Shown: in pieces, positions 1 to 6,345 of the stretch | How positions within the stretch are numbered: the stretch's first letter is position 1 | Layout: each line of letters starts with the position of its first letter | NCBI GenBank assembly: GCA_017405445.1 | Contig: JAFRAK010000009.1 | Span: forward strand, 1-45,419 | DNA length: 45,419 bases | Reading direction: 5' to 3' | From: Bacilli bacterium | GTDB lineage: Bacteria; Bacillota_I; Bacilli_A; RF39; UBA660 | The notes under the pieces: generated by a model | The model's input: the letters and a program-made list of their open reading frames with translations, nothing else | Databases searched by the model: none | What the model was told of the DNA's origin: nothing | Translations under genes and position numbers: made by a program

Positions 1-98
1 TAAGCTTTCTTTTCTCGTTTATTGTGTGATCCTATTTGTGCTAAATCAGGTATAGTCTTAATAGGTTCAACTCTTAATATTGCATAATTTAATTCCAT
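1..98 (-). CDS. MobV/Pre-type plasmid mobilization relaxase, N-terminal fragment (runs off the left edge)
   Basis: Reading leftward from an ATG at 98 gives about 32 codons, beginning MELNYAILRVEPIKT and containing HNKREKK, with no stop before the edge. An opening of the form NYAILRVxKIK followed about 20 residues later by HNxRE is typical of Pre/Mob (MobV) relaxases, which nick oriT and mobilize plasmids or integrated elements. HNxR is their N-terminal conserved motif. An AAGGAGAA ribosome binding site sits just upstream at about 104-111. Only the tip of the protein is visible, so catalytic residues beyond this motif cannot be checked. The gene marks the left part of the window as mobile DNA. 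Confidence 0.6.
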   Translation of the reverse strand, partial: MELNYAILRVEPIKTIPDLAQIGSHNKREKKA

Positions 99-167
99 AT
101 ATCATTTCTCCTTTCATTTTTACACAACAAAAAAGATATGTTGTTAAACATACCTTTAATAGTAAAA

Positions 168-196
168 TCAGTATGTAAGAAATCCTTACATACTGA
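168..196 (-). terminator. Hairpin downstream of the DUF4143 ATPase
   Basis: A perfect 12-bp inverted repeat, TCAGTATGTAAG (168-179) and CTTACATACTGA (185-196), has a 5-nt loop. On the minus strand it is followed by a short T stretch (TTTTACTATT). It lies about 20 nt past the stop of the upstream gene, as expected for a terminator, although the T-run is weak. Confidence 0.5.
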
Positions 197-216
197 CTAA
201 ATAAATATTTTTAAAT

Positions 217-1422
217 TTAGTTTTCTTTAGCCAACCAATTTGCTATATCAACTATTTGAATACCTTCATATTGATAATCATCGTGTTTTGTTCTAGCAAT
301 TACCATTTTAGGATAAGCATCTTTAATCTTTAATAATGGATCAACTTCACGTCTAAATGTATCATTATCAAAATCATCTCCAATATCACTTGATACTTGA
401 ATATAAATTTTCTCATTTCTTTTTGTAGCTACAAAGTCAATTTCTTTTTCATATAGAGTTCCAACATAAACTTCATATCCTCTTCTTAATAGTTCTATTG
501 CTACAATATTTTCATAAACTCGTCCATAATTAATATTTTTAGTTCCTAATTTAGCATATTTAAAAGAGTGATCAACTAAATAGTATTTATCTTGTGAAGA
601 TAAATATTTTTTACCTTGAATATCATATCTTCTTATTTTATAAAACAAAAATGCATTACACAAATAATTTATATATGAACTTACCGTTTTATGATTTATT
701 TTATCTTTATTGTTAGTTAGAGAGTCAGCTATATTTCTTATTGATGTTAAATTTGAAATATTATCCATTAAGAAATCATTAATCATATCAAGTAAATGGT
801 CTTTCTTAATTTTATATTTATTACAAATATCTCTTTTTATAAGTGTATTGTAAATATCGTTTACATAATTATATTTTTCTTCATTTTCTTTATATAAATA
901 TGCTCCTGATAATCCTCCCTCTAAGACATAATTATCAAACGCCTTATCACTATTTTCTATATTGTAATAATTTAAAAATTCTTTGTATGAAAACGGATAT
1001 ACCTTTATTTCAAATGTTCTTCCTGTAAATAGAGTTGCTAAATCACTACTCATTAAGAAAGCATTTGATCCAGTTATATATATATCAAATTTTTCTTCTG
1101 CATGAAAATTATTAATAGCCTTTTCAAAATCAATACACATTTGAACTTCATCTATTAGTAAAAAATTATGTTTGTTACTAATATAATTATTTTCAACATA
1201 TTCAATTAATTTATGATATTCTTTAAGATTTTCAAATTTGGTTAAATTGTAATTAATATGAATTATATTATAGTCTTTTTCATTGTTTATAACATAATTC
1301 TTAAATTCTTCTAGTAATTTTGATTTCCCAGCACGTCTAACTCCAGTTATTACTTTTATATCTGGAGTATTCATTGTATTAATTAATTTTTCTAAATAAA
1401 ATGTTCTTTGAATTAATTTCAT
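217..1422 (-). CDS. AAA family ATP-binding protein with C-terminal DUF4143 (AAA_14/DUF4143 type)
   Basis: This 401-aa protein has a P-loop GVRRAGKS at residues 27-34 and a Walker B strand FLLIDEVQ near residue 90. Its C-terminal part from about 305 contains GRVYENIVAIELLRRG and EIDFVATKRNEKIYIQVS, the pattern of the DUF4143/PD-(D/E)XK-like domain. Proteins of this family are common accessory ATPases in gut Firmicutes and archaea; their cellular role is poorly known. The ATG at 1422 is chosen because GGAGGGAATAAT lies directly before it. The longer frame to 1506 would need an unlikely lysine-rich leader. It sits alone in the mobile-looking left arm. DNA binding or nuclease activity is inference. 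Confidence 0.8.
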   Translation of the reverse strand: MKLIQRTFYLEKLINTMNTPDIKVITGVRRAGKSKLLEEFKNYVINNEKDYNIIHINYNLTKFENLKEYHKLIEYVENNYISNKHNFLLIDEVQMCIDFEKAINNFHAEEKFDIYITGSNAFLMSSDLATLFTGRTFEIKVYPFSYKEFLNYYNIENSDKAFDNYVLEGGLSGAYLYKENEEKYNYVNDIYNTLIKRDICNKYKIKKDHLLDMINDFLMDNISNLTSIRNIADSLTNNKDKINHKTVSSYINYLCNAFLFYKIRRYDIQGKKYLSSQDKYYLVDHSFKYAKLGTKNINYGRVYENIVAIELLRRGYEVYVGTLYEKEIDFVATKRNEKIYIQVSSDIGDDFDNDTFRREVDPLLKIKDAYPKMVIARTKHDDYQYEGIQIVDIANWLAKEN

Positions 1423-1586
1423 ATTATTCCCTCCAATAACATTATAACACATAATTCCCATAATTGATATTTTTTTCTTTTTGGGAAATAGAGTTTTACT
1501 TCCCAAAAATCAATTTTTTTTAATTTTGCGTAATGAAATAATTATTTTCATTATAAATATTTTGTGAGAAAACTTATTATTTTATG

Positions 1587-2582
1587 CTAAATATGACATA
1601 TATCATCACATTTCTTGTTATAATTACAATATTTTCTAATCTTACATCTTTCACATTTAGGATGTTCTCCACATATATTAGCAGACCTTAATAAACAAAA
1701 TTGTTGGATTATTGATTCTACAATTATCTCATCACAGTTATTTAATATTGCTATCTTTTTAATTATATTTAATACTTGTTGTTCTGTTGCATTAGCATTT
1801 TCTACAATTCCTAGTCTATGACTACCAAATAATCTTTCTAATTGAACGCTTTTTTTACAAGTATTAATACCAACTCGTTTTAAATAATCATAAGCAAAAG
1901 CTCGTCCAACTTGTATTAGTTTATATTTACCACTATTAAACATATTAGCAATATCATTAGGAGTTTCTTTTTTAACAAACTTGTCTAAACTTCCATAATC
2001 TTTTTCAATTCTTTCTAATACCATTATATTTTTAGATAATGCTTTCATCTGATTATTTATCATTGGGTTAGTGCAATGAATCTTCCTTAACTTATTAACT
2101 AAAATACTTGTATCAACTACCTTTAAATAATTCTTATCATAGTTATGAAAAATTTTATCAATAGTTTCCATATTTTCTCTTATATTATTATCTCCCCATC
2201 TATGATTTGAAAGTAGAGCAATAATTAATGCTTTTAAATGTTCTTCAAAAGAATATTTTTTACCTTTCTTTCTAGATTTAACATTATTTACTAAATCTTT
2301 AATATCTCTCATATAATCATAATTAATATAATCCATACTTTCTTTTATAAGAGGGTATATTTCTTTTAAATCTTTATCATCAAGTAAAGTAATATTTTTT
2401 ACCATTTCATAATTAGGATTATATATTACTTGGTTATCAATACAATCTTTTAATATTTCTATAACTTCTTCATTAGATAAATACTTAACTCTCTCAATAG
2501 GGAATATAACTTTATTTGCTTTAACATATTTTATCAGCAAAGGTATTAATTCATCTTTTTCTAAAATTTTCTCATTTTTCAT
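1587..2582 (-). CDS. HhH-GPD / endonuclease III-like protein with C-terminal Fe-S cluster motif
   Basis: This 331-aa mainly helical protein ends with CGEHPKCERCKIRKYC, a C-x5-C-x2-C-x5-C arrangement. Endonuclease III-type glycosylases have C-x6-C-x2-C-x5-C, so the first spacing is one residue shorter. The segment GRAFAYDYLKRVGINTCKKS followed by VQLERLFG resembles the helix and conserved region after the HhH motif in such glycosylases. A base-excision or DNA-modification role is therefore plausible. The N-terminal 150 residues are not recognised. The ATG at 2582 has GAAAGTGAG upstream at a good distance; the GTG at 2597 lies inside that ribosome binding site. The gene belongs to the mobile-looking arm, so it may be cargo rather than housekeeping repair. 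Confidence 0.5.
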   Translation of the reverse strand: MKNEKILEKDELIPLLIKYVKANKVIFPIERVKYLSNEEVIEILKDCIDNQVIYNPNYEMVKNITLLDDKDLKEIYPLIKESMDYINYDYMRDIKDLVNNVKSRKKGKKYSFEEHLKALIIALLSNHRWGDNNIRENMETIDKIFHNYDKNYLKVVDTSILVNKLRKIHCTNPMINNQMKALSKNIMVLERIEKDYGSLDKFVKKETPNDIANMFNSGKYKLIQVGRAFAYDYLKRVGINTCKKSVQLERLFGSHRLGIVENANATEQQVLNIIKKIAILNNCDEIIVESIIQQFCLLRSANICGEHPKCERCKIRKYCNYNKKCDDICHI

Positions 2583-2593
2583 AAAAAAATATC

Positions 2594-2630
2594 TCACTTT
2601 CTATAAATTAGTCTTTAACTAATAAAGTGA
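2594..2630. repeat. Nested inverted repeats in front of the HhH-GPD-like gene
   Basis: TCACTTT (2594-2600) pairs with AAAGTGA (2624-2630). Inside it, ATTAGT (2607-2612) pairs with ACTAAT (2618-2623) around CTTTA. The right arms are contiguous, while the left arms are separated by 6 nt. This lies in the leader or promoter of the gene that starts at 2582. It could be an operator or an RNA hairpin. Confidence 0.35.
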
Positions 2631-2685
2631 AATATTGTCTTTAGCCCTTATTTTATCGGCATTTATTTGTTTTTATATTTGGGTA

Positions 2686-3066
2686 TCACTTATTCAACAT
2701 CACCCATGGAGTTTTTACCATTCTAGGGCCATTTTCATCATTTGCTCCTTGAGCATTTTCTATCATATAACCAACACAATCAATTAGTTTTATATTACAA
2801 GTTACATCATCTATTTGTATTTTAGCTGTATTAGTTGGTACAAATTTAGGTTCTGTTGTCATAATTGTTTTTCCTGCAGCACTTTGAGGGATTTCATCTA
2901 AAGCTCTTTTTTTTTCAAATTCATCATCTATATTAGGTAAGATTAATGTTTCTACCATTCTTTTGATGAAAGTTGATTTTCCTGTTCTTACTGCGCCTAC
3001 TACTCCTAAATAAATGTCTCCACCACTTCTTTTGGCAATATTTTTTATTATTTCTTTTTTATTCAT
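2686..3066 (-). pseudogene. spoIVA: Stage IV sporulation protein A, N-terminal fragment only
   Basis: The 126-aa product matches the start of SpoIVA very closely by eye: GDIYLGVVGAVRTGKSTF (Walker A at residues 24-32), PQSAAGKTIMTTEPKFVP, LIDCVGYM and ENGPRMVKTPW. SpoIVA is the roughly 490-aa ATPase that polymerises on the forespore surface and is the base of the spore coat. Here similarity stops at Trp121 and five unrelated codons (VMLNK) lead to a stop, so the middle and C-terminal assembly domains are missing. AAGGAG precedes the ATG at 3066. The neighbours (19-repeat protein, SpoVIF-like) also fit a spore context. Either the gene is dead, or it is split by the adjoining mobile DNA and could be rejoined by excision. 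Confidence 0.85.
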
Positions 3067-3110: not shown

Positions 3111-3130
3111 AAAGAACTAATTAGTTCTTT
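3111..3130. terminator. Bidirectional terminator after the 972-aa repeat gene
   Basis: AAAGAACTAA (3111-3120) and TTAGTTCTTT (3121-3130) form a perfect palindrome flanked by A- and T-runs on both sides. On the minus strand it follows the stop at 3129-3131 and runs into eight Ts. Confidence 0.75.
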
Positions 3131-6047
3131 ATTTTTTTGTTGGGATAATGTGTTTTAAATTAATATTTATATGACAATTAGCAGATTCTTTTTCTCTTAT
3201 TTGTTCTAACTCATCATTTGATATTTCAATATAGATATCTTTATTAACAATAATCTTATGATTACTCTTAACTCCCATATTTAATTCATTAAGCATAGAA
3301 ATTGGCATAAATAATACTCCATCTGCATCACATATTGTTATGTTGTATGTTTTTTCTTCATTGAAATCAACACTGATAATTATAATGTTTTTGTTTAGAG
3401 CATTTATTTCTTCCATATCTGATTCTGTATATTCCTTATTATCTATATTTTTTACTTCTTTTTCTGGATGTGATGAGTATTTGGTAGGAATATATAGTTT
3501 TTGTGTTAATTTATCTCTATAGATAAATACTTTTTCTTGTGCTTGAGTTCTTTCATAATGATTTTTTAATTCTTCTTTTAATTCTTGAATATTTACATTT
3601 TGATCTCCTAATAGTTTTACAAAATAATGTTCTGTTTCATTATTTAAGCATTTTAAAATGTCATTTTTTACTTTTTCTACGTCTACTTCAGGATTTCCTA
3701 GTAGTTTTACTAAATGTCTTTCAGTAGGTTCTTTCTTTAATTTACTTAGTAATTCAGATTGTATTTCTTTGATATTAACATTTTGATCTCCAAGTAATTT
3801 AACAATATTCTTTTCTGCTTTTCTTTCTACTTGACTCATTATTTCTTGTTTAATTTCTTGAATATCTACATTTTGATCTCCTAGTAGGACTACTAAATTT
3901 TTTGTTGTTTCCTGATCCATATAGCTTAATAGATTTTGTTTAATTTCTTGAATATTTATATTTTGATCTCCTAGTAATTTTACAATATATCTATCTGAAT
4001 CTTCTTCTAAGTGTTTATGAAGTTCTCTTTCAATTTCTTCTATATCTACGTTTTGATCACCAAGAAGTTTTACTATATGTCTTTCTTTTCCTTCTTCTAA
4101 ATGTTTTAATAATTCCTGTTCAATATAATTTAGGTCAACATTTTGAACACCAAGAAGTTTTACAAAGTGTTTTTCTGTTTCTTGATTAATGAAGCTATTT
4201 AAAGATAATTTAATATCTTCAATATCTACATTTGGATCTCCTAATAATTTTACTAGTTGTCTTTCTGTTCCTACTTCTATTTGTTTATTAATTTCTCTTT
4301 TAATATCTTCAATATTTACATTTTGATCTCCTAATAGTTTTACAAAATGTCTTTGTGTTTCTCCTTGTTGAATTTTTAATAAATCTTGTTTAATACCATT
4401 GATATCTACATTATGTTCTCCAAGAAGTTTTACAATATATCTTTTCTCTTCTTCTACTAAATGTTTTTCTAATTCTCTTTTAATTCTTTCTACATCTATG
4501 TTTGTAGAGCCAATATTTTTAACGATATATTTTTCTGCATTCATATCTAATTTCTTTAATAATTCTTCTTTGATTTCGTCAATATTAACATTTTGATCAC
4601 CAAGTAGAATTACAACTTTCTTTTCCTCATCATCATCGTTTAGATATGATTTTATTTCTTTTTTAATTAATTCAATATCAACATCTTGATCTTTTAATAG
4701 TTTTACTACATGTCTTTCTGCTTCAAAATTTAAATGCTCTTTTAGAGATTTTTTAATACTTTCAATATCTATATTCTGATCTCCTAATAATTTTACTACT
4801 TGTCTATCAGATTCTCTATCTAGATGGTCTCTTAAATCTTGTTTGATTTCTTCGATTTTTTCATGAGTATCTCCTAGTAGATCTTCAATATGTTTTTCAG
4901 ATTGATCACTAATTTTACTTAATAATTCTTTTTTAATAGATTCAATATCTACATTTTGATCTCCTACTAGTTTTACGATACATTTATTAGAATCTGTTTC
5001 AAGAGATTTTGCTAAAGCTTTTTTGATTCCTTCAAGATCTACATTTTGATCTCCTAGAAGTTTAACTTCTCCTTTTCTAACATATGGTGCAATTAAATCT
5101 TGTTTAATCTGTTCTATATCAACATTTTGATCTCCTAAAACTTTAACAATATTTATATTAGCAGCTTTTTCTAAAACTTTGTTAATTTTTTCTTTAATTT
5201 CTTGAATGTTAACATTTTGATCTCCTAAAAGTTTTACTACTTTCTTTTCGGTGTCATGATTTACTATTCCAAGAATTTCATTTTTTATTCTTTCTATATC
5301 CATTTTATTATCCCTTTCTATTACTCTTTTTTCATCTTTTTTTGGTTTAATAATTTTTTCTATTCCCTTTTGACCAGTTTTTTCTTCAATCTTTTTTAAT
5401 TGTTCTTCTGTAATGGAATAGCAATTTTTATTATTTATTACTTTTGAAATTCCTTCGACTTGTATTCCTAATCTTAAGGTTAATTCATAAATACTATAAT
5501 CTATATATGATTTTTTATCTTTTATATTAAAATAATAGATAAAAGTCGAAGTAGGAGGAGTTATTGGATGATTGAAGTGAACCATTTTGTATTTTTTTTG
5601 AAGAATTAGTTTATCTTTTTTTGTTTTTTCTTCTATTTGATTTATTTCTTCCTCTGATACTCTACTGTAAACAATTCCTTCAATATTTAGTTTATCTTTT
5701 ATTGGGATATCATACCTTTTACATATATTTTCAGCAATGTATAATGTGTTATTATTATCTAAGTCTACTATTACTGTAAATGATAGATGTAATTGTAGGT
5801 CAAAGTATGGTTTAATATTTGTTATTATTTCTATCCCTTTTTCTTTTGCTTTCTTATTTATTACATCAAGATCTTTTTCTTGAATCAGAAAACATGTCTT
5901 TTCTTTAATGTGTTTCTCTTCTTCATGATTTCCAATGTCATATTCATTACAAATATCATCCTCTAAATATAATCCATTTGGTGTTTTATATATGACATAT
6001 TCTAATATCATGAGAGAGTTTTTATCCCCTTCTAATTCCTCTTTCAT
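3129..6047 (-). CDS. Large cytoplasmic repeat protein: 19 x 30-aa GDQNVDIE repeats between end modules
   Basis: I do not recognise this 972-aa protein. Residues 13-80, 87-158 and 163-233 are three copies of an alpha/beta module with the pattern LYIxxxI..., YxIS, ELxxIExKT. Then come about 19 tandem repeats of roughly 30 residues, with consensus VKLLGDQNVDIEEIKxEL followed by an acidic, amphipathic helix-like half. The C-terminal 150 residues return to one or two diverged end modules (LYIPTKY; VLFMPISMLNEL; ISNDELEQIREKE). No signal peptide, membrane helix or cysteine motif is seen, so it should be cytosolic. GGGAGTG precedes the ATG at 6047. It lies between spoIVA and a spoVIF-like gene, all on the same strand. 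A spore-coat or mother-cell scaffold role is a guess from position. Confidence 0.8.
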   Translation of the reverse strand: MKEELEGDKNSLMILEYVIYKTPNGLYLEDDICNEYDIGNHEEEKHIKEKTCFLIQEKDLDVINKKAKEKGIEIITNIKPYFDLQLHLSFTVIVDLDNNNTLYIAENICKRYDIPIKDKLNIEGIVYSRVSEEEINQIEEKTKKDKLILQKKYKMVHFNHPITPPTSTFIYYFNIKDKKSYIDYSIYELTLRLGIQVEGISKVINNKNCYSITEEQLKKIEEKTGQKGIEKIIKPKKDEKRVIERDNKMDIERIKNEILGIVNHDTEKKVVKLLGDQNVNIQEIKEKINKVLEKAANINIVKVLGDQNVDIEQIKQDLIAPYVRKGEVKLLGDQNVDLEGIKKALAKSLETDSNKCIVKLVGDQNVDIESIKKELLSKISDQSEKHIEDLLGDTHEKIEEIKQDLRDHLDRESDRQVVKLLGDQNIDIESIKKSLKEHLNFEAERHVVKLLKDQDVDIELIKKEIKSYLNDDDEEKKVVILLGDQNVNIDEIKEELLKKLDMNAEKYIVKNIGSTNIDVERIKRELEKHLVEEEKRYIVKLLGEHNVDINGIKQDLLKIQQGETQRHFVKLLGDQNVNIEDIKREINKQIEVGTERQLVKLLGDPNVDIEDIKLSLNSFINQETEKHFVKLLGVQNVDLNYIEQELLKHLEEGKERHIVKLLGDQNVDIEEIERELHKHLEEDSDRYIVKLLGDQNINIQEIKQNLLSYMDQETTKNLVVLLGDQNVDIQEIKQEIMSQVERKAEKNIVKLLGDQNVNIKEIQSELLSKLKKEPTERHLVKLLGNPEVDVEKVKNDILKCLNNETEHYFVKLLGDQNVNIQELKEELKNHYERTQAQEKVFIYRDKLTQKLYIPTKYSSHPEKEVKNIDNKEYTESDMEEINALNKNIIIISVDFNEEKTYNITICDADGVLFMPISMLNELNMGVKSNHKIIVNKDIYIEISNDELEQIREKESANCHININLKHIIPTKK
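3540..5240 (-). repeat. Coding tandem repeat, about 19 units of about 90 bp
   Basis: The sequence ACATTTTGATCTCC followed by an AGTTTTAC-like block recurs about every 90 bp on the plus strand; it encodes the GDQNVD core on the minus strand. Two units differ by one codon, one unit is three codons short, and several cores have drifted (GSTNID, GDTHEK, GEHNVD). This indicates old duplication rather than a recent expansion. Confidence 0.9.
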
Positions 6048-6081
6048 AAATACACTCCCTATTATCTTCTATTATACAATA

Positions 6082-6107
6082 AAAAAGACTAAAGTCATAG
6101 TCTTTTT
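6082..6107. terminator. Terminator after the spoVIF-like gene
   Basis: AAAAAGACTA (6082-6091) pairs with TAGTCTTTTT (6098-6107) around a 6-nt loop. On the minus strand it overlaps the stop codon and ends in a T-run. Confidence 0.75.
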
Positions 6108-6345
6108 AAAATATTTTTTCAATATTTTTTGGTACTTCATCTTTTATAATTGAATTTATAATTTTTTCTTTTTTTTCTTCAGATACTTTTTTATTTGTTA
6201 TTTTGCTTATTTCATCAATAATTTCTCTAATTGTTTGTTCATTTTTCATATTATTATTTTGTAATTTTGCTGCGAGAGATAGAATCGTTTCTTTTTTGAT
6301 ATTCGTTTTATTTTCTATGTTTTTAAATAAATTATCTTTTAACAT
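6106..6345 (-). CDS. SpoVIF-like small sporulation protein
   Basis: This 79-aa helical protein has the layout FKNIENKTNI, AAKLQNNNMK, EQTIREIIDEIS, NKKVSEEKKEKI and SIIKDEVP. That matches what I recall of the SpoVIF (YjcC) family: about 85 residues, a mother-cell protein needed for coat assembly and late gene expression in Bacillus. The ATG at 6345 is chosen because GGGAGG lies 7 nt before it; an ATG at 6360 overlaps that ribosome binding site. The ribosome binding site is buried in the terminator hairpin of der, 31 nt downstream of the der stop. The link to spore formation fits the nearby spoIVA fragment. The family call rests on a short sequence. Confidence 0.6.
   Translation of the reverse strand: MLKDNLFKNIENKTNIKKETILSLAAKLQNNNMKNEQTIREIIDEISKITNKKVSEEKKEKIINSIIKDEVPKNIEKIF

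Follow-up and report, generated by a model that had tools for sequence, protein, structure and literature searches.

The window analysed here, that is the whole stretch of 45,419 nucleotides (contig JAFRAK010000009.1 of assembly GCA_017405445.1, a Bacilli bacterium of the GTDB lineage Bacteria; Bacillota_I; Bacilli_A; RF39; UBA660), begins with a piece of mobile DNA that interrupts spoIVA, the gene of the ATPase that serves as the base of the spore coat. The 5' part of the gene is joined at a single tryptophan codon to the left part of an intervening element. An earlier note on this DNA, made from the letters alone, had reported that SpoIVA similarity breaks off at a Trp codon after 121 residues; this is confirmed by the PF09547 match and by the loss of similarity directly past the TGG codon at 2706-2704 of the minus strand. 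The features of the junction are as follows:

2704..3066, minus strand: 5' part of spoIVA, codons 1-121, ending in TGG (Trp121); PF09547 positions 1-123, E 2e-56
2704..2706, minus strand: core TGG, the crossover region (attL), common to both junctions; the last shared bases in all split genomes and the centre of the inverted arms of attP
2686..2703, minus strand: element-derived tail of the truncated spoIVA frame, VMLNK*, with the stop at 2686
2682..2689, minus strand: left arm of the element attachment site, GTGATACC, conserved in almost every left end
1..2703: left part of the spoIVA-intervening element, running off the contig; its right end is 6185-6800 of contig C41 of the source genome (G000)

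The right ends of the elements mirror the left arm as GGTATCAC, at an equal distance from TGG.

The source genome is a draft of 57 contigs with 71.6% completeness, in which the window is contig 1. A search of this genome with the SpoIVA_ATPase model located the second half of spoIVA on contig C41 (6.8 kb, L004), where codons 121-487 occupy positions 5081-6184 of the minus strand. A large serine recombinase (LSR) gene, cut by the contig end, is represented on C41 by its last 181 codons, which lie 68 bases upstream of the junction. When the two halves are joined in silico at the common TGG, they give a SpoIVA of 487 amino acids in which the ATPase, middle and C-terminal SpoIVA domains are all complete (the intact proteins of the genus-mates compared have 487-504 amino acids). 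The two hidden Markov model matches overlap at positions 96-123, but this overlap was discounted as the over-extension of a match into the element, and the true 3' frame begins at position 122. The DNA identity to the complete element of genome G432 is 96% at the left end (window 1611-2706) and 97% at the right end (C41). In the intact relative G012 the gene order ack-DHH-EngB-spoIVA-Der corresponds to C41 followed by the window, so the two contigs would be neighbours when the element is absent.

With the two halves on separate contigs of so fragmented a genome, an artefact of assembly or binning has to be considered, i.e. halves coming from different organisms, or a chimeric contig imitating the junction. 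Both halves are closest to genus-mates, their contigs are syntenic neighbours in G012, and the same breakpoint is found in many independently assembled genomes, with whole elements contained in single contigs, which makes an artefact hardly credible.

Among 59 relatives, a second species of the source genus (G033) shows the same split and many others are intact. Of 386 sampled genomes of the family, 333 have a SpoIVA score over the cut-off; after half-matches had been resolved and the DNA read, element DNA was found at TGG in 22 genomes from 19 genera (23 genomes with G033), and four further genomes (G060, G198, G247 and G348) have contigs ending exactly at TGG. Intact spoIVA is present in sister species of carriers. 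Three genomes that at first seemed split (G339, G068 and G275) were rejected, the contigs being broken away from TGG, and G211 and G324, which end before TGG, were left out of the judgement. An identical breakpoint in more than 20 other genomes excludes chance, and the integration of a site-specific LSR element in spoIVA is practically certain. A third, divergent type of left end (TGG followed by GGTGTTATATAAAAATGGATACC, then ~9.9 kb of cargo) is seen at L246 (G227:C5); no LSR of the spoIVA-site clade was found in the G227 genome.

Eight distinct complete elements, each within one contig, range from 3.1 to 13.9 kb:

Larger complete elements: G372, 13,866 bp; G432, 13,449 bp; G226, 11,102 bp; G215, 5,196 bp
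Smaller complete elements: G294, 3,607 bp; L161, 3,507 bp; L163, 3,328 bp; L160, 3,141 bp

In all eight, the reconstructed attP consists of the arms GTATCAC (GTATCAT in G294) and GTGATAC with the midpoint on TGG; such inverted arms centred on the core have the form of an LSR attP site. The rebuilt attB is in frame in all eight as well (..TPW(Y/F)..PF..), the insertion point being the conserved Trp codon of the motif KTPW-YxEEIPF (the hyphen marks the junction). The LSR gene ends 50-69 bases from TGG. The site specificity of the element follows from these sequences. The 3' piece of spoIVA, the adjoining site-specific recombinase gene, a short repeat shared by the junctions (here TGG flanked by inverted arms) and the empty, intact gene in relatives (here in the same gene order), all named in the earlier note as things to look for, are present.

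The constant genes of the elements are the LSR and a small protein directly upstream of it. The recombinase contains Resolvase (catalytic), Recombinase and zinc-ribbon domains and occurs as two main types, A and B, which are ~70% identical to each other and have the arms in common. A scan of the named genomes with the LSR of G372 gave 80 loci. Those with at least 58% identity (within L140-L178) all read into the 3' half of spoIVA where enough downstream sequence is available, while those with 45% identity or less are located elsewhere; in the tree, a branch supported at 100/100 separates the spoIVA-site LSRs from the rest. Across the 72 genomes tested, this clade is found in carriers and otherwise only on one contig of G066. 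The latter genome (L260 = G066:C24; L270 = G066:C18) has an intact spoIVA together with an LSR module on a separate 4.1-kb contig, which may reflect an excised or mixed population, or a misbinned contig. A related clade of ~42% identity (L180, L188, L209, L213, L217 and L218) reads directly into LysM-repeat-like coding sequence and may interrupt LysM genes in a similar way.

Wherever the DNA upstream of an LSR was read, the small protein was present; it has a conserved N-terminus of approximately MYExxEFYxxDGxDLKExLKSCIYxYY. In the skin element of C. difficile a small excision factor (the recombination directionality factor, RDF, CD1234) works with the LSR CD1231 (PMC5025042), and the yin element encodes a predicted RDF of 72 amino acids (PMC10747680, PMC4191935). 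The protein described here shows no homology to known RDFs, and its structure prediction is weak (pLDDT 66), with one confident helix. A small protein of comparable size and arrangement likewise precedes LSRs that have other target sites, which suits a directionality factor better than a spore-specific regulator. The protein of the spoIVA elements is regarded as a candidate excision (directionality) factor.

The element DNA in the window holds three genes, all beyond the spoIVA breakpoint, where the earlier note had placed a MobV-type relaxase start and cargo-like genes:

1587..2597, minus strand: left-end cargo gene, 336 amino acids; homologues occupy the corresponding position in G372 and G432
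217..1506, minus strand: cargo gene for an AAA_14/DUF4143 ATPase, with Pfam matches to AAA_14 (E 2e-28) and DUF4143 and a PADLOC match to the candidate defence family PDC-S01 (E 9e-143)
1..98, minus strand: first part of a MobV relaxase gene that runs off the contig; window 1-161 has 95% DNA identity to the G432 element

That assignment is upheld by the identity to G432, by the Pfam and PADLOC matches and by a complete MobV homologue in G372, which matches Mob_Pre (E 5.5e-30) and passes the NCBIfam MobV cut-off. The 336-residue protein has no match in Pfam, PADLOC or NCBIfam; its Cys-rich C-terminus is weakly like a 4Fe-4S DNA glycosylase motif (weak PDB match, E 0.12). The larger elements additionally encode MobV, Fic (SoFic-like), AAA_14/DUF4143 proteins, glycosyltransferases and helix-turn-helix (HTH) regulators. 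The MobV relaxase is encoded in several elements and is missing from those of 3.1-3.6 kb; in L161 and L163 the Fic-like gene is down to a remnant and the LSR module is intact. The AAA_14/DUF4143 ATPases (PADLOC candidate PDC-S01) recur in both element types, at 217-1506 of the window (minus strand), at L101 3086-4441 (minus strand) and at L104, with best matches to different PDC-S01 models. The element of G226 (L102 4447-11397, minus strand) encodes a cargo protein of ~2,317 amino acids with no match in Pfam.

Most known elements that intervene in spore genes are prophage-like, and the HTH repressors and a GtrB-like gene of the G372 element match phage protein families. A defective prophage, like the skin of B. 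subtilis, is nevertheless very improbable at this site, since none of the ten proteins of the 13.9-kb G372 element matches a phage structural, packaging or lysis protein, a MobV relaxase is present, several complete elements are too small (3.1-3.6 kb), and IMG/VR holds no LSR above 44% identity. Among plasmids the LSR gave short, weak matches only. The preference of the earlier note for a mobilizable element in place of a prophage is thereby borne out.

Outside the element, the window encodes between spoIVA and der (3129-6047, minus strand) a protein of 972 amino acids with many repeats of ~30 residues (KLLGDQNVDIEEIK...), for which the Pfam matches are marginal only.

The right ends of the elements in G325, G109, G402 and G146 are 99.9-100% identical over 3.5 kb, and the left ends in the first three are identical over 1.5 kb, while the spoIVA genes of these hosts are only ~67-75% identical between genera. 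These assemblies belong to projects with different names (SUG, BRZ, Lapin). In respect to synonymous divergence (dS), the LSR values for L168, L169 and L174 are 0.003-0.007, against 0.34-0.75 for spoIVA. Identical elements in genera with diverged spoIVA, together with the low dS of the LSR, imply insertions that are recent and recurrent at one codon, and these identities indicate horizontal spread of an element that is moving between genera now.

Whether the element leaves spoIVA again can be judged from the contig ends, the state of the two halves and the other sporulation genes. In G060 and G247 the left contig stops at TGG and the right contig starts with it; G348 and G198 likewise have right contigs that start with TGG. 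The left contig of G198 reads through the joined site and shares exactly 141 bases with the right one, which is probably the k-mer length of the assembler. Contigs ending exactly at TGG suggest that joined and unjoined forms coexist in the reads. The 3' halves are open in 35 of 36 complete cases, and the 5' halves are uniform in length. SpoVAC is kept in 24 of 27 split and 25 of 27 intact genomes, compared with 5 of 16 that lack spoIVA; Spo0A is found in 26 of 27 split genomes, nearly all at full strength, while many of the spoIVA-less genomes score much lower. SpoIIID was rejected as a marker of sporulation, being lineage-dependent, with no match over the cut-off in the source genus even where spoIVA is intact. 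The order RF39 is predicted to form spores (PMC10868615).

The loci L165 and L170 are collinear over 6.7 kb at 80% identity, and here the LSR (dS 0.85) and spoIVA (dS 0.73) are similarly diverged, with a dN/dS of 0.076 for spoIVA, as expected if the gene is functional while interrupted. This single pair, the only one clearly fitting co-inheritance, is compatible with a long joint history of element and spoIVA under selection. As general proof of function in the interrupted state the dN/dS of spoIVA was set aside; it is not decisive, most insertions being young.

Across the family, a conserved CATAnnnTT lies in the spoIVA promoters, ~30-41 bases ahead of the start. CATA-type elements resemble the -10 region of sigma-E/K promoters. 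A similar -10 element precedes the small-protein gene by ~26-33 bases in most modules (median score 8.9, versus -4.4 for background genes); no -35 could be clearly recognised ahead of the recombinase module. The LSR modules L179-L219, which are not in spoIVA, have CATA-type -10 elements ~22-29 bases ahead of their small gene.

Several observations weigh against programmed excision. The pattern of contig ends could also arise where strains carrying the element are mixed with strains lacking it. One carrier, G402 (L123 / G402:C70), has the only damaged 3' spoIVA, with the C-terminal ~88 residues replaced by unrelated sequence, the result either of a real deletion or of a chimeric contig. No circular attP form was found in the IMG/VR viral contigs, and the signs of excision all come from assembled sequence. 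In most closely related pairs the LSR has a far lower dS than spoIVA, so that most insertions are young and the intact halves may merely not have decayed yet. The -10 element is likewise present on 23 related LSR modules with other targets (median 8.1) and is thus no specific sign of developmental control; the CATA-type -10, shared with spoIVA promoters and strongly enriched over the background but equally present on these other modules, was dropped as specific evidence of a sigma-E promoter. The -10 element is either a wider habit of this LSR family, the elements of which possibly respond to sporulation in general, or not developmental at all.

The young insertions, the movement between genera, the damaged carrier and the kind of evidence for programmed excision would all suit plain insertional inactivation, in which a mobilizable element uses spoIVA as attB and abolishes spores, excision being rare and serving transfer, not development. 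This is the main rival, but it is an unlikely one: nearly all complete 3' halves are open, SpoVAC and Spo0A are retained at the rate of uninterrupted genomes, unlike in the spoIVA-less ones, the L165/L170 pair has the divergence described above, and small elements with decayed cargo retain an intact LSR module. The simple inactivation with loss of sporulation, given in the earlier note as the alternative, is thus disfavoured, and its suggestion of a skin-like intervening element is largely supported by the 3' half, the LSR, the in-frame join and the intact relatives, with mother-cell excision as its inferred part.

Reversible, skin-like developmental excision is likely (about 0.7), its timing in the mother cell being what we infer from the role of the gene, and the full explanation, an integrated non-viral LSR element that is excised in the mother cell and is mobile between cells, is given much the same probability (0.72). 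In the proposed sequence of events, the LSR would integrate the circular element into attB inside spoIVA. Production of the conserved small companion protein would then let the LSR recombine attL with attR at TGG, releasing the element as a circle and restoring an uninterrupted spoIVA (487 amino acids in the source genome). If this occurs in the mother cell, the host could complete its spore and the forespore genome would keep the element; spoIVA is needed in the mother cell only, the DNA of which is not passed on, so excision there is compatible with inheritance of the element. The element would also move between cells, either by its own MobV or mobilised in trans, and such transfer would explain the identical elements in different genera.

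Sporulation intervening elements have been published in sigK, spsM, spoVFB, gerE and yabG (PMC10747680, PMC4191935, PMC5595907, PMC5025042), and a full-text search of the open-access literature found no report of one in spoIVA. The skin elements in sigK (B. subtilis SpoIVCA; C. difficile CD1231) likewise lie inside a mother-cell sporulation gene, encode an LSR and rebuild the frame by precise excision. Their target is a sigma factor gene, whereas spoIVA encodes an early structural ATPase, and the element in spoIVA is small, non-viral and mobilizable, with identical copies across genera. The gin element in gerE of Bacillus cereus ATCC10987 (PMC5595907) is also a non-phage element in a sporulation gene with an LSR and an RDF (here a candidate); it differs in its size of 28.6 kb and three serine recombinases, compared with 3-14 kb and one LSR at the junction, and in its gene and host group, the spoIVA element being spread over many genera. 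The elements yin (yabG, C. botulinum), vfbin (spoVFB) and SPbeta (spsM) also carry a recombinase and split a spore gene (PMC10747680, PMC4191935), but they are prophage-like and lie in other genes. Integrative mobilizable elements that combine an LSR with MobV share the relaxase, the type of cargo (AAA_14/DUF4143, Fic, glycosyltransferases) and LSR integration; the spoIVA element differs in targeting one codon of a developmental gene in every case seen. XisF, the excision recombinase of the cyanobacterial fdxN element, acts in terminally differentiating cells. It is a distant family match of the spoIVA-site LSR (E 1.5e-29), which is not a member of the XisF family (score 103 versus a cut-off of 375), and both gene and organism are different. 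By its anatomy, the spoIVA element would work like skin, and especially like the non-phage gin, with developmental excision as a putative common trait.

In general, the known intervening elements are mostly degenerate prophages, while the one in spoIVA is non-viral, partly mobilizable and still spreading between genera. The insertions form a natural series of differing age, offering material on how a parasite turns into a developmental switch, and an LSR clade with a well-defined attB has been obtained. Predictions of sporulation in gut genomes that are based on spoIVA may misclassify carriers as non-sporulators. The sigma-E-like promoter element on related LSR modules elsewhere may mean that such elements are commonly excised in the mother cell. 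Tentatively, and with somewhat less than even odds, the element might be seen as a contagious developmental switch: one mobilizable clade would spread through a large uncultured gut family via a single codon of spoIVA, and the assembly of the host spore would then depend on the recombinase of the element firing in the mother cell.

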